Shown: piece after piece, positions 5,890-10,758 of the stretch
Layout of the letters: each line of letters starts with the position of its first letter
Position numbering within the stretch: the stretch's first letter is position 1
Notes under the pieces: generated by a model
Database searches by the model: none
What the model was told of the DNA's origin: nothing
What the model saw: only the letters and a program-made list of their open reading frames with translations
Translations under genes and position numbers: made by a program
IMG/VR virus record: IMGVR_UViG_3300030117_006268
Span: 1-27,776 of that record
DNA from: a virus
Reading direction: 5' to 3' (one strand)
Length of the DNA stretch: 27,776 nt

Positions 5890-6242
5890 GTAGAAAACCT
5901 ATGAATAATGAAGCCAGACTCAGCAAGCATGTGTCTATCCGAGTGAGTGAAGCAGAGTACCAAATGCTCAAGCAGTACTCATTGAAGCGTGGGAAGACTT
6001 TTGCACAGGCTGTTCGCGAAATGTTGATTGGCGTTTTGGGCGATCAAGACCTCATTGACCATGTCATCAAAAGTGCCGAGCAGTGGGAGTCGGACAGATT
6101 GAATGGCGAGCATGCATCAGGTATCGATTCAAGCATCGCGTATGACCGGATGCAGCTTATACAGCTGTCGAGAAAATACGATGACTTTCAGCGCGAATTG
6201 GATATTGCGTTGCGGTCAATACCAACGGTGAATGCAGAATGA
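5886..6242 (+). CDS. Ribbon-helix-helix (CopG/Arc-like) protein
   Basis: A 118-residue protein with an N-terminal ribbon-helix-helix pattern at about 13-47: strand HVSIRVSEAEYQML, helix QYSLKRGKT, helix FAQAVREMLIGVL. Such domains dimerise and insert the strand pair into the major groove. The rest (about 50-118) is helical (IDHVIKSAEQWESDR, LIQLSRKYDDFQREL). It overlaps its neighbours by ATGA on both sides, so it is translated together with the Gp157-like and initiator genes. It is the best candidate in the window for a sequence-specific regulator, and its dimeric fold would suit the dyad iterons next door or the early promoter elements; this is inference. Confidence 0.65.
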   Translation: MSRKPMNNEARLSKHVSIRVSEAEYQMLKQYSLKRGKTFAQAVREMLIGVLGDQDLIDHVIKSAEQWESDRLNGEHASGIDSSIAYDRMQLIQLSRKYDDFQRELDIALRSIPTVNAE

Positions 6243-7069
6243 ACTTCCACAAGGGTCGGGCCACTGATGCAGTATTCGAGTCTGATTTACCGAGCATACA
6301 GAAACTGATTCTGCTCTGTTATATCAAGCACGCAAATGCTGACGGAGTGGCCTGGCCTGGTGGAAACAGAGTGGCAAGCTTGACTGGAGCCTCATTGGCA
6401 TCAATCAAGCGCCACCGTTCCGCATTGATGCAAGCAGGCATATTGGTCAAGATTGGTGGTGGTGATGGCAACGTTTATCGATTCCAAATCAACGTAAGCA
6501 ATCTCACCACTGGTGTCAGCGTGACACCGGTATCAGATAGTGACCGGTATCATAGCGATACCAGTACCGGTGTCACAGTGATACCTCTACCGGTGTCACA
6601 GAGAGACCCTAATATACACAAAGAAAATCACACACAGAAAAAACACAGTACGCCTTCGGCGGTTGTTAGTGAGCAGAAGAAGGTCAATCGAGATTTACAG
6701 AAGGTAAAACAGGTCTGGCAGTCGTTGATGTCCATATCAGAGCAATCTGATAAGTCATCACACAGGCTCAAGTTGACTCCTTGGCGGCAGTCAATGGTTA
6801 GTCAGCGGATGAAAACATATACGGCAGATGAAATCATCCATGCATGGACCTGGTGGAATGAGTCGATGCACCAGCAAGCCATTTATCTACGTTCGAACCG
6901 AGGACCAGCAGGAATCGATACCTTTTTGAGAAGGAGTAACCACGACAAATATCAGGCTTTCGCTGCCGACTGGAAGCCTGTTATAATTGAACCTGGGCCA
7001 AACGCTTCAATCGAAGAAATGAAGCAATGGCTCGATTACAAAAACCGCATGTCCATTGTGGGAAAATAG
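6239..7069 (+). CDS. Winged-helix replication initiator (lambda O-like organisation)
   Basis: A 276-residue protein. Residues about 15-85 form an HTH_36-type winged helix: LPSIQKLILLCYIKHANADG, then the AWPGGNRVASLTGASLASIKR recognition region and LMQAGIL. Residues about 92-124 are a Thr/Val/Asp-rich low-complexity linker encoded by an array of dyad iterons. Residues about 165-240 are a C-terminal domain (LKLTPWRQSMVSQRMKTYT, then GIDTFLRRSNHDKYQAF) of the kind found at the end of phage initiators. It probably binds the iterons inside its own gene, opens the A-rich tract that follows, and passes helicase on from the loader encoded at 7360. Its start overlaps the stop of the ribbon-helix-helix gene by ATGA. 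Confidence 0.75.
   Translation: MNFHKGRATDAVFESDLPSIQKLILLCYIKHANADGVAWPGGNRVASLTGASLASIKRHRSALMQAGILVKIGGGDGNVYRFQINVSNLTTGVSVTPVSDSDRYHSDTSTGVTVIPLPVSQRDPNIHKENHTQKKHSTPSAVVSEQKKVNRDLQKVKQVWQSLMSISEQSDKSSHRLKLTPWRQSMVSQRMKTYTADEIIHAWTWWNESMHQQAIYLRSNRGPAGIDTFLRRSNHDKYQAFAADWKPVIIEPGPNASIEEMKQWLDYKNRMSIVGK
6512..6608. repeat. Five dyad iterons: probable replication origin
   Basis: Five 17-base units start at 6512, 6529, 6546, 6569 and 6592. Each is GGTRTCA, three bases, then a right arm that is the reverse complement or a decayed form of it. Right arms: TGACACC (perfect), AGTGACC, CGATACC, TGATACC, AGAGACC. The first three units abut; the last two are each preceded by a 6-base gap ending in TACC. 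This is the layout of initiator-binding iterons inside an initiator gene. Confidence 0.75.
6609..6652. other. A-rich tract next to iterons: candidate DNA unwinding element
   Basis: About 44 bases directly after the iterons are strongly biased to A on the + strand (CTAATATACACAAAGAAAATC, then CACACAGAAAAAACACAG), inside the coding region of the initiator gene. In lambda the AT-rich, strand-asymmetric tract lies in the same place relative to the iterons, and is where DNA opens. Assignment is by position and composition. Confidence 0.5.
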
Positions 7070-7079
7070 GAGCGACAAA

Positions 7080-7367
7080 ATGACAATAAAAGGTAGTACC
7101 TTTACAGCAAAAGAGCTTTTCGCAGAGGTCGTCAAGATAGGCGAGCGATCGTTAAAGCAAGACAAAAACGAAACCGATTTAGACCCCGAATTGCTAAAGC
7201 CGATTCGGTACAATGTGAAAATGTTGCTTAGGATTCATGGGGATTTGACCCGAAGCAAATCCATGAGCGATCGGTCCTTTCTCGCGATGCAGATGATTTA
7301 CCAGGTCGCAGAATTGCAAGGGCATCTATTCAATGTAATCAAGCAGGAGGGCATCAAGCATGGCTAG
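7080..7367 (+). CDS. Small helical hypothetical protein between initiator and loader
   Basis: A 95-residue protein; ATG 7080 follows ATAGGAGCGACAAA, and the longer open frame from 7056 has no ribosome binding site. Almost entirely helical and charged: FTAKELFAEVVKIGERSL, LLKPIRYNVKMLLRIHGD, FLAMQMIYQVAELQGHLF. It overlaps the next gene by 8 bases. Its position between replication genes suggests a replication accessory role, but no family is recognised. Confidence 0.65.
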   Translation: MTIKGSTFTAKELFAEVVKIGERSLKQDKNETDLDPELLKPIRYNVKMLLRIHGDLTRSKSMSDRSFLAMQMIYQVAELQGHLFNVIKQEGIKHG

Positions 7368-7929
7368 TTCAGCAGAAGTATATGCTGCCCTCCGAATCAT
7401 CGGAGCATCATGCAAAGGCATGGGCTCTGGTGAGAATTGGGCAATGGAAGTAGCGAGCACTTGGGCAGGTGAGTTGAAGCATGCTCAGGCAAAGCATGTT
7501 GCAGACGCAGCACGAATGTGGATTCGAACGGAGGAGCGCCGTCCATCATTGTACAATTTTCTCAGCGTCGTCAAGCAGGCTAGAGGGCAGGCAAATGTCA
7601 AGCAGGACATCGCTGGTTGCGAAGATTGTGGATACAGCGGTTGGCGAGAATTGGTCGTCCATTGGTTGGATGCACGCACCAATACAAGAAGGGCGCAAAG
7701 TTACACCGCGCCATGTGAGTGTGAACGCGGGATGCATTTCGCTCAGAGTGTTGATGGATTTACCGTATCTAAAGCAAGACGCCAGTTCGAAAACATGGCT
7801 GGATTTATAGAAATACACGTTACCGACCGTGAAAGGTCAGCCATACCTTTGGCATTGAAAGTCTCACCGGAGCAATATCAGGAATTGTATAGCAAGCCTA
7901 AACGACGTAGCCTTGGATGGGAAAGCTGA
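7360..7929 (+). CDS. Probable helicase loader with Cys cluster
   Basis: A 189-residue protein. The N-terminal 75 residues look like the helical domain of G39P-type helicase loaders: a helix pair around WAMEVASTWAGELKHAQ, then VADAARMWIRTEERRPSLYNFL. A zinc-binding pattern follows: CEDCG (about residues 87-91) and, after about 25 residues, CECERG (about 113-118). A Cys-cluster of this type is common in phage loader proteins encoded after the initiator. The C-terminal 70 residues are unrecognised. It would recruit the host replicative helicase to the origin in the neighbouring initiator gene. An alternative is a primosomal or DNA-binding protein without loader activity. Confidence 0.5.
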   Translation: MASSAEVYAALRIIGASCKGMGSGENWAMEVASTWAGELKHAQAKHVADAARMWIRTEERRPSLYNFLSVVKQARGQANVKQDIAGCEDCGYSGWRELVVHWLDARTNTRRAQSYTAPCECERGMHFAQSVDGFTVSKARRQFENMAGFIEIHVTDRERSAIPLALKVSPEQYQELYSKPKRRSLGWES

Positions 7930-8159
7930 TGCCGAAAACAAAAGATAAACAATACAAAAATTGGATTTCGCAATGTTGGCCACTTCAGTCGGAATACGAC
8001 CTGCAAAGGTTCAAACGTTTCATTGATTCGTTACGGTTCCATTTTAACTTTAATTACCATGACACATTTCTATTCGTACAAGAAGCCGTTGGTCGTCAGA
8101 TTACAATGGGTGACTTTGATACCGTCATGGCAGAGCTTGATGCGTTGGAATCGAGGTAA
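7929..8159 (+). CDS. Small hypothetical protein (76 aa)
   Basis: ATG 7929 is placed in a TGATG overlap with the loader gene's stop, with GGGA 6 bases upstream; ATG 7917, in frame, is possible and would add four residues. The protein is helical and aromatic (WISQCWPLQSEYDLQRFKRFI, then FHFNFNYHDTFLFVQEAVGRQ) with an acidic end. Function unknown. It is part of a continuous string of small genes up to 8613. Confidence 0.6.
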   Translation: MPKTKDKQYKNWISQCWPLQSEYDLQRFKRFIDSLRFHFNFNYHDTFLFVQEAVGRQITMGDFDTVMAELDALESR

Positions 8160-8613: not shown

Positions 8614-8669
8614 GTTGTTTGCACCAACCATTACGAGGTGGTACGGTAGAAATCAAACAAGGAGCGACC

Positions 8670-9305
8670 ATGGGCAAGAAAAGCGCAGCCGCAGTATATG
8701 TCGACCCGAAGACCTTGGTGCCTTGGAGTCGGAACCCGCGAGATAACAAGATGGCTATCGATAAGGTGGCCACATCAATAGAGCGGTATGGATTCGCTTC
8801 GCCTATCGTGGCCAGGCAAGAGGATGCCAGAATCATAGCGGGGCATACGAGGCACGCAGCAGCTATGCGGTTGGGCTTAGATGAAGTGCCTGTGCGTTTC
8901 CTCGATATCGATGAACAGAAGGCATCAGCGCTCGCTCTGGCCGATAATAAACTGGGCGAAATTGCCACATGGGATGATGACGAGCTAAACAGAATTTTGA
9001 ACGAACTTAATGCAGACGGGGTGGATGTCGGCGAACTTGGTTTCGACATGGATGAGTTCGCAGATTTGCTTGATGAAATCGAAGCTGACTCTATCGAGCC
9101 AGATATCGTGTTCAGTGAATACCTTGACGAAGCAAATAACTATGTCGTGCTTCTGTTCAAAAACGAGATTGATTGGCTATCCGCTCAGACCCACTTCGAG
9201 CTTGAGTCGAAATACTCAAGACGATCGAATGGCAAACCATGGTCAAAAGGCGTTGGGCGCGTCATTGATGGAGCCGAATATCTGGACAAAATCAAAACGC
9301 CATGA
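8670..9305 (+). CDS. ParB-like (ParB/Srx fold) protein
   Basis: A 211-residue protein. Residues about 10-95 are a ParB N-terminal-type domain: YVDPKTLVPWSRNPRDN, ERYGFASPIVAR, then IIAGHTRHAAAMRLG (55-69) with the GHxR signature, and LALADNKLGE. In ParB proteins this fold binds CTP or acts as a nuclease. The rest is acidic (FDMDEFADLLDEIEAD) with a C-terminal domain (VVLLFKNEIDWLSAQTHF) that I have seen after this domain in other phages. No helix-turn-helix or methyltransferase domain is attached. The start follows AAGGAGCGACC; an upstream TTG at 8619 has no site. The ATGA overlap with the first glycosyltransferase gene suggests a shared role with DNA modification. Confidence 0.75.
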   Translation: MGKKSAAAVYVDPKTLVPWSRNPRDNKMAIDKVATSIERYGFASPIVARQEDARIIAGHTRHAAAMRLGLDEVPVRFLDIDEQKASALALADNKLGEIATWDDDELNRILNELNADGVDVGELGFDMDEFADLLDEIEADSIEPDIVFSEYLDEANNYVVLLFKNEIDWLSAQTHFELESKYSRRSNGKPWSKGVGRVIDGAEYLDKIKTP

Positions 9306-10012
9306 TTCGCATTTTGGTGCCGAGTTATGGCCGTGCCGGACAAGCCTCGACTATGTCGATTTTGCCGTCGGCAGATATCGTCGTACCCGAATCGCAATGG
9401 GACCTGTACGAAAAGACCTACCCAGGACGGGTGTTGACAATACCCGACAGCAAGGATGGAAACATAGCCCGGAAACGAAATGCCGTACTCGACATGCTTG
9501 AGCCTGACGAACCTTGTTTCATGGTTGATGACGATTTGCTTAACGTGGACAAAATCAAGCATGGAAAGCTCGCCGATGTGCAGCAAATGTTGGAAAGCTT
9601 TAGCAATGCAGCGCAAGATGCTGGTGCCTATTATGGTGGATTTTCGAATTACAACGACCCTGGCAAAATGGCGGAATATGCACCATTCTCATTGACCAAA
9701 CCAAGCTATGGTTGCGTGTTCATTAGGAATGACCCGAGCATTCGATATGACGAATCACTCGGCAGGCATGAGGATGTCGATATTTACCTGCAGTACATGC
9801 TGAAGCATAGATTCGTATTTAGAGATAACCGTTACTATTTCAACTTTGAGTGCAACAAGGATGTAGCTAAAAGGGTCCAACCTGGTGGAATACAGGGCGG
9901 TGATGTCGAGCACCGAGATGCTTTGATTGCACTACGAAAGAAGTGGGGCGGACTAATCAAGCTTAAAGATGGCAGAATGAATGGTGTGCACCAACCGATC
10001 AAGGGGACGTGA
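9302..10012 (+). CDS. GT-A glycosyltransferase, TET-associated (TAGT) type, first copy
   Basis: A 236-residue protein with the layout of TET-associated glycosyltransferases: N-terminal ILVPSYGRAG (4-13), then NIARKRNAVLDM (about 54-65), the metal- and nucleotide-sugar-binding VDDD (75-78), YAPFSLTK, and RYDESLGRHEDVDIYLQ with a downstream acidic residue that could be the base. Family members transfer sugar to hydroxymethylated pyrimidines in phage DNA. The target here is inferred, not shown. The gene is coupled to the ParB-like gene by ATGA and is a clear paralogue of the next gene. An alternative is glycosylation of a virion protein. Confidence 0.7.
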   Translation: MIRILVPSYGRAGQASTMSILPSADIVVPESQWDLYEKTYPGRVLTIPDSKDGNIARKRNAVLDMLEPDEPCFMVDDDLLNVDKIKHGKLADVQQMLESFSNAAQDAGAYYGGFSNYNDPGKMAEYAPFSLTKPSYGCVFIRNDPSIRYDESLGRHEDVDIYLQYMLKHRFVFRDNRYYFNFECNKDVAKRVQPGGIQGGDVEHRDALIALRKKWGGLIKLKDGRMNGVHQPIKGT

Positions 10013-10758
10013 TGCAGATACTTAGTCCGTCATGGAAGCGTGCAGATTCGTGTTTCACTCACAAATATTTACCAGACATAAAGTACGTTGTCTGCACATC
10101 GCAAGCAGATGCATATCGAGAAAATGGTTTGCCTGTGTTGGAATGTCCAGACTCAGCTCAGGGCAGCGTTTGTCGAGTTAGAAATTGGATTCTGGACAAT
10201 GCCGACGATGACCATGTGCTAATAGTAGATGATGACATTCACTATCTCGGCAGGTGGAATGGTAACAAGCACCAGAAAATGAACACGAAGCAAGCGATGG
10301 AATTCATAGCTCAAGGCTTCGAGCTTGCGGAGCAGTTTGGTGTTCGATTCTGGGGAATCAATCTGTTGCAGGACAAAGGTGCATATCGCGAATACACTCC
10401 ATTCAGTCTCAACAATGTCGTGCTTGGGCCATTTGGTGGATTCCTCAATGCCGATTGCAGATATGATGAATCGTTGCCTTTGAAGGAAGATTACGACATG
10501 AGCTTGCAGATGTTGAACAAACATCGGAAGGTCCTACGCATTAACTATGCTCATTATGTATGCAAGCAGCACACGAATCGTGGTGGCTGTGCATCCTACA
10601 GAACCGTTAGCAGGGAGATGGAGCAGTTTGACATGTTGCAGGCGAAGTGGGGCAAGAGCATAATCAGAAAAGACAGTGGGTCGTCAAAGGTAAATAGGAA
10701 ACGGCAACAGACCTATGACATCAACCCAATAGTACGAGTGCCGATAGGTGGTGTGTGA
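10012..10758 (+). CDS. GT-A glycosyltransferase, TAGT type, second copy
   Basis: A 248-residue paralogue of the preceding gene. Shared features in order: ILSPSWKRAD, VCRVRN (53-58), IVDDD (71-75) followed by an IHYLG segment, YTPFSLNN, GGFLNADCRYDESL, then KEDYDMSLQMLNKHR and a final QAKWGKSIIRK. It keeps the same acidic residues as the first copy, so both are expected to be active. ATG 10012 forms a TGATG overlap with the previous stop; GTG 10009 is the alternative. The last 25 residues (SSKVNRKRQQTYDINP) have no counterpart in the first copy. Two enzymes could act in sequence to build a disaccharide, or on different bases. Confidence 0.7.
   Translation: MQILSPSWKRADSCFTHKYLPDIKYVVCTSQADAYRENGLPVLECPDSAQGSVCRVRNWILDNADDDHVLIVDDDIHYLGRWNGNKHQKMNTKQAMEFIAQGFELAEQFGVRFWGINLLQDKGAYREYTPFSLNNVVLGPFGGFLNADCRYDESLPLKEDYDMSLQMLNKHRKVLRINYAHYVCKQHTNRGGCASYRTVSREMEQFDMLQAKWGKSIIRKDSGSSKVNRKRQQTYDINPIVRVPIGGV

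Follow-up and report, generated by a model that had tools for sequence, protein, structure and literature searches.

A putative replication origin inside an initiator gene

We concluded with high confidence, on the basis of sequence analysis, that ORF 6239-7069 in the 27,776-base stretch of DNA examined here (the window) carries a phage theta-replication origin built like ori-lambda, with an encoded initiator that would bind dyads within its own gene. It is very probably an origin of the lambda/P22/phage L type with iterons of its own. The window is a whole record, a linear virus fragment in which small and large terminase, portal and head genes were found. The source virus is a tailed phage, and its genome is probably incomplete in the record. 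Profile matches point to a gene for a single-strand DNA-binding-like protein and one for a Gam-like protein 5' of the array; the major genes are all on the + strand and read through it. No GC-skew switch was detected at the array within this 27,776-base fragment; because the record is only a fragment, GC skew is uninformative here. Another origin may lie outside the linear fragment.

The dyad array and the A-rich tract

Five 17-base units of the form GGTRTCA-NNN-TGAYACC lie on the + strand inside ORF 6239-7069, all within 97 bases. Iteron 1 (GGTGTCAGCGTGACACC, 6512-6528, frame 0) is a perfect dyad, and iteron 4 (GGTGTCACAGTGATACC, 6569-6585, frame 0) is perfect to the consensus GGTRTCANNNTGAYACC. 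Iteron 3 (GGTATCATAGCGATACC, 6546-6562, frame 1) has one mismatch. The right arm is decayed in iteron 2 (GGTATCAGATAGTGACC, 6529-6545, frame 2; three mismatches) and in iteron 5 (GGTGTCACAGAGAGACC, 6592-6608, frame 2; two mismatches); one poor arm in two of the five dyads counts against the origin reading. Direct reading confirmed what the earlier note had reported of this arrangement: five units starting at 6512, 6529, 6546, 6569 and 6592, a perfect inverted repeat in unit 1, abutting units 1-3, and 6-base gaps before units 4 and 5. The decay of the right arms of units 2 and 5 also stood, and the mismatch in unit 3, which had gone unmentioned, is to be added.

The array exceeded what shuffling or recoding produced. 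Dyad matches with up to three mismatches numbered 8 in the window vs. 2.9 expected, and none of the shuffles got to 8. Seven exact half-sites were counted in the array, compared with a maximum of five in 20,000 synonymous draws (window codon usage, protein fixed) and a maximum of six in 20,000 codon permutations within the initiator gene. Since protein-preserving recodings never gave seven half-sites, the DNA of the array has been under selection. The unit starts fall in frames 0, 2, 1, 0 and 2 of the ORF, and thus all three reading frames are used; the residues encoded by the array (92-123 of the initiator) are not themselves periodic.

An A-rich, easily melted tract (6609-6648, + strand), presumed to be the unwinding element, adjoins the 3' end of the array. 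Of all 40-mers in the gene it has the lowest stability, and within the window it ranks at the 99.1th percentile for low stability. The A content directly 3' of the array is 60% vs. 30% in the remaining initiator gene, in agreement with the A-rich stretch described earlier. A enrichment after the array was observed in 24 of 31 genes with the same dyad, not all of which are independent.

The initiator protein

The product of ORF 6239-7069 (+ strand, 276 aa) was assigned as an O-like replication initiator from its matches to PHROG replication initiation and O-like profiles (phrog_1032, 3.2e-10; phrog_391, 1.8e-9; phrog_678, 3e-9). Its match to HTH_36 (E 7.6e-5, 22.9 bits) was under the 25-bit cut-off. 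The Pfam family Phage_rep_O (PF04492) did not match the protein, and RepA_N was absent from its Pfam matches at E ≤ 1. An AlphaFold2 model indicated a winged-helix DNA-binding domain at residues 1-85 (6239-6493, + strand), with helices at 5-14, 19-30, 42-49 and 53-65 and wing strands at 69-73 and 79-82 (pLDDT about 85-98). This domain is followed by a linker at about residues 90-138 that is disordered in the model (pLDDT about 50) and by a helical C-terminal part. The Foldseek neighbors of the model were winged-helix DNA binders, none of them below E 0.001. The model is consistent with the earlier proposal that the array codes for the linker of a winged-helix protein.

The C-terminal domain (residues 156-276; 6704-7066, + strand) presumably interacts with a partner or helicase loader, by analogy with lambda O. 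It is 62% identical in contigs L042 and L044, despite a different N-terminal domain and array there. Searches with the C-terminal domain and with the downstream gene returned only these two contigs, and a search of viral and genome contigs with the whole initiator found no close relatives.

The same dyad in distant initiators

We scanned 2.9 million viral contigs for an exact two-dyad array, with a backwards-read pattern of the same composition and shape as control. The scan gave 36 dyad-array loci vs. one for the control pattern. The array lay within an ORF at all 36 loci, and except for one 5'-truncated case this was a winged-helix ORF with the array just past the domain. Bacterial genome contigs gave 28 array matches, about half of them in prophage-like initiators. 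These came from Bifidobacterium magnum, Mycobacterium fragae, Roseibium, Pleomorphomonas and Cohaesibacter, and from uncultured Synergistetes, KSB1, Polyangia and Vicinamibacterales.

For alignment, 32 initiators were used (the window protein, 21 viral and 10 genomic). HTH_36 matched 29 of the 32, and Phage_rep_O matched two (L128 and L129, E about 1e-25). The aligned initiators are about 16-28% identical to the window protein and form 25 clusters at 50% identity; for the viral-scan initiators the identity is about 20-30%. Two or more dyads were present in 31 genes, in 28 of which they do not all fall in the same reading frame. The most frequent dyad steps in these genes were 22 bases (30 times), 23 bases (11) and 17 bases (7). 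The 17-, 17-, 23- and 23-base steps in the window had been called unusual; since relatives with this dyad most often use steps of 22, 23 and 17 bases, they are ordinary for the family.

The best named-phage match to the window protein is the DNA replication protein O of Escherichia phage mEp554 (PP180005.1; 27% identity over 82% of the length), which was found by protein search alone without use of the motif. The DNA coding for its linker contains AGTGTCACAGTGACACC plus three close variants, placed in two frames at steps of 22-23 bases. Like the window, mEp554 thus has linker dyads, four in number, of the form AGTGTCANNN(T/A)GACACC. It differs from the window in that the left arm starts AGTGTCA, the units never abut, and the linker peptide is another one. 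The earlier note had raised the case of relatives that keep the linker peptide and lose the dyads. The opposite was seen, with the mEp554 protein keeping dyads in a different peptide and dyads occupying several frames in the 28 genes counted above.

In other named phages with O-like initiators, different clustered repeats occupy the corresponding position: GGGGTCA in Pam5, GTCCCAA in Bcep176, and GGTGACANNNTGTCACC-like dyads in Psychrobacter phage Y8A. De novo 7-mer counts on the initiators of 15 named phages placed all copies of the top 7-mer at about residues 86-144 in most of them, and in none of the control genes. The same count for the window gene gave p = 0.037, a statistic that is weak for single genes. 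PHROG 391 matches in 190 genomes of one class were mixed; many were not clear phage initiators and few had clustered repeats. No recognisable initiator was found in L055, a distant terminase relative.

Several further occurrences of the dyad or of other repeats were recorded. Nine dyads, each with at most two mismatches, are spread over about 400 bases of linker in the prophage-like O initiator of L128 (3947-5722), a number far above that of its relatives. Related small genes with an Arc/HicB-like end, found in Mycobacterium, Mycobacteroides and an alphaproteobacterium, have a double GGTGTCA-NNN-TGACACC dyad across their starts (L127, 1002-1493; L131, 4357-4872; L135, near 7936-7964); this double dyad is likely an autoregulatory operator. 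Near-identical GGTGTCATTTTGATACCCCCGGTATCA-type repeats, mostly outside long ORFs, occur in six contigs of Ignavibacteria STA_27 (L122, L136, L137, L140, L141 and L143) and are a dispersed repeat or regulon site. The TGACACC repeats of Streptomyces plasmid pWTY27, considered as possible kin, are unrelated, being TraA transfer sites (PMC3583192).

Joint exchange of the DNA-binding domain and its sites

Of the relatives in which the region can still be seen, L042 and L044 are the closest (terminase 73%). Identity to the window is 62-70% for the C-terminal half of the initiator, the gene after it, the ParB-like gene (protein 70% over 138 residues) and the small terminase (62%), and 47% for the Gam-like gene 5' of the initiator. 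The initiators of L042 and L044 have another N-terminal domain, and where the window has dyads their genes carry eight GGGCCA sites phased at 11 bases. These sites occupy all three frames and number eight vs. a maximum of six obtained by codon permutation. A second set of contigs, L168-L178, combines closely similar C-terminal domains with N-terminal domains bearing GGTGTCA, TGTGCTCA, TGTGTTCA or GGACAAATTGTCC sites, i.e., four cassettes. These comparisons show that DNA-binding domain and array are exchanged as a single cassette. Such joint exchange speaks against the array being a target of ParB, terminase or a host protein.

Alternative explanations

The repeats could be the by-product of a low-complexity linker selected for its peptide and not as DNA sites. 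The linker is indeed disordered in the model, and linkers drift easily. However, the units lie in three frames of a non-periodic protein, recoding never reaches the observed half-site count, and distant initiators have kept the dyads but not the peptide, which makes this explanation extremely improbable. It is equally hard to credit that the array serves as a partition or packaging site for another phage protein. A ParB-like gene (8619-9305, profile matches) lies 1.5 kb downstream, and ParB proteins bind dyads; yet L042 and L044 keep the ParB-like protein (70%) and the small terminase (62%) while both the array and the DNA-binding domain have been replaced.

A role mainly as operator, with the initiator or another regulator controlling transcription of the replication genes, is unlikely. 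The dyad has a typical operator shape, and the same double dyad stands at the starts of unrelated small genes (L127, L131 and L135, from Mycobacterium and an alphaproteobacterium), but four to five sites in mid-gene beside an easily melted tract suit an origin better, and the position after the winged helix has been kept in dozens of distant initiators. The dyads may have a regulatory effect besides origin function. We also considered that the binding unit is a 14-base palindrome, TGAYACC-GGTRTCA, at the unit junctions. One such palindrome is TGACACCGGTATCA (6522-6535), and every unit start coincides with ACCGGTRTCA or a version of it with one mismatch. Most dyads of the relatives, though, stand at 22-23-base steps, so that the junction palindrome is gone and the 17-base dyad is kept; we consider the 14-base unit very unlikely.

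Proposed mechanism and comparison with known systems

In the preferred reading, an origin of the ori-lambda kind, the N-terminal winged helix would bind the five GGTRTCA-NNN-TGAYACC dyads, probably with one initiator dimer per dyad, and the complex would melt the A-rich tract just downstream (6609-6648). The C-terminal domain would then recruit the replicative helicase, probably via a phage- or host-coded loader, although this route is a guess. Domain and sites would form one cassette swapped by recombination, with the C-terminal partner-binding half staying in place; the sites would travel with the domain because they sit in the DNA coding for the flexible linker of the initiator.

Lambda O binds inverted repeats inside its own gene and melts an adjoining A+T-rich stretch (PMC5043065, PMC7466680), and a flexible linker joins its N-terminal DNA-binding and C-terminal P-binding domains (PMC6022878). 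The window shares with lambda O and ori-lambda the order of N-terminal DNA-binding domain, linker and C-terminal domain, as well as the in-gene dyad iterons and adjacent AT-rich tract. The O-like PHROG matches, the winged helix and linker of the model, the dyads in the linker and the A-rich tract next to them uphold the lambda-O-like organisation proposed in the earlier note. The window differs from lambda in iteron sequence, in iteron length (17 vs. about 19 bases) and in number of units (five vs. four); the Phage_rep_O match is absent and a P-type loader was not identified. Only two of the sequence-testable features set the window apart from the lambda type: the Phage_rep_O profile does not match, and no loader gene could be identified. 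Inside the initiator genes of P22 and phage L lie repeats of other kinds, 11 bases long in phage L (PMC8022706). Like the window, P22 gp18 and phage L gene 18 represent O-like initiators with their own repeats in the coding region, but the repeat sequences differ and the window has 17-base dyads. The 11-base repeats of phage L recall the 11-base-phased GGGCCA sites of L044.

Iteron plasmids resemble the window in that repeats bound by the initiator accompany an AT-rich tract, and in some RepA_N plasmids the origin lies inside the rep gene. One Foldseek neighbor of the model, 4pql, bears the title 'N-terminal domain of DNA binding protein' and is a staphylococcal RepA. Unlike RepA_N-type initiators, the window protein has no RepA_N match.

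Breadth and significance

For the window itself, the result is a probable origin in a phage that has not otherwise been studied. We are evenly divided on a broader proposal: that the GGTGTCA-NNN-TGACACC iteron, at 17- or 22/23-base steps, is common to winged-helix initiators that form a very large, old group and occur in phages of several bacterial phyla, and that kin with other recognition helices bear other dyads or 11-base sites. Because each gene holds its own sites, the databases would constitute a naturally occurring collection of DNA-binding domains paired with their sites. If the proposal is true, this collection could be applied to origin mapping in uncultured phages and to the recognition rules of the winged-helix fold. 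The present findings extend the lambda principle of an initiator and its own sites in one gene to phages of several bacterial phyla, with the cassettes repeatedly exchanged. For uncultured phages and prophages they offer a sequence-only route to replication origins, and winged-helix DNA-recognition rules would become accessible from recognition-helix/site pairs that can be read in the databases and tested. We found no description of GGTGTCA phage iterons in the open-access literature, and no report there of the breadth of one iteron over distant phages or of the number of cassette exchanges; both of the latter may be new.

Neighboring genes

The gene downstream of the initiator (7360-7929, + strand, 189 aa) encodes a protein with a Cys motif C-x2-C ... 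C-x-C and is 62% identical at the same position in L044. It has no family match among Pfam and PHROG profiles and its structure model is poor; an assignment as a G39P- or P-like loader received no support from either. For these reasons a role as helicase loader or partner is only a guess.

Directly upstream of the initiator, a ribbon-helix-helix-like gene (5892-6242) has no blast match in L044, where a different small ORF is found; the gene may be part of the exchanged cassette. Two adjacent ORFs occupy positions 9302-10758 of the window. The second of them matches phrog_842, a phage glucosyl-HMC glucosyltransferase family, which points to possible DNA modification.
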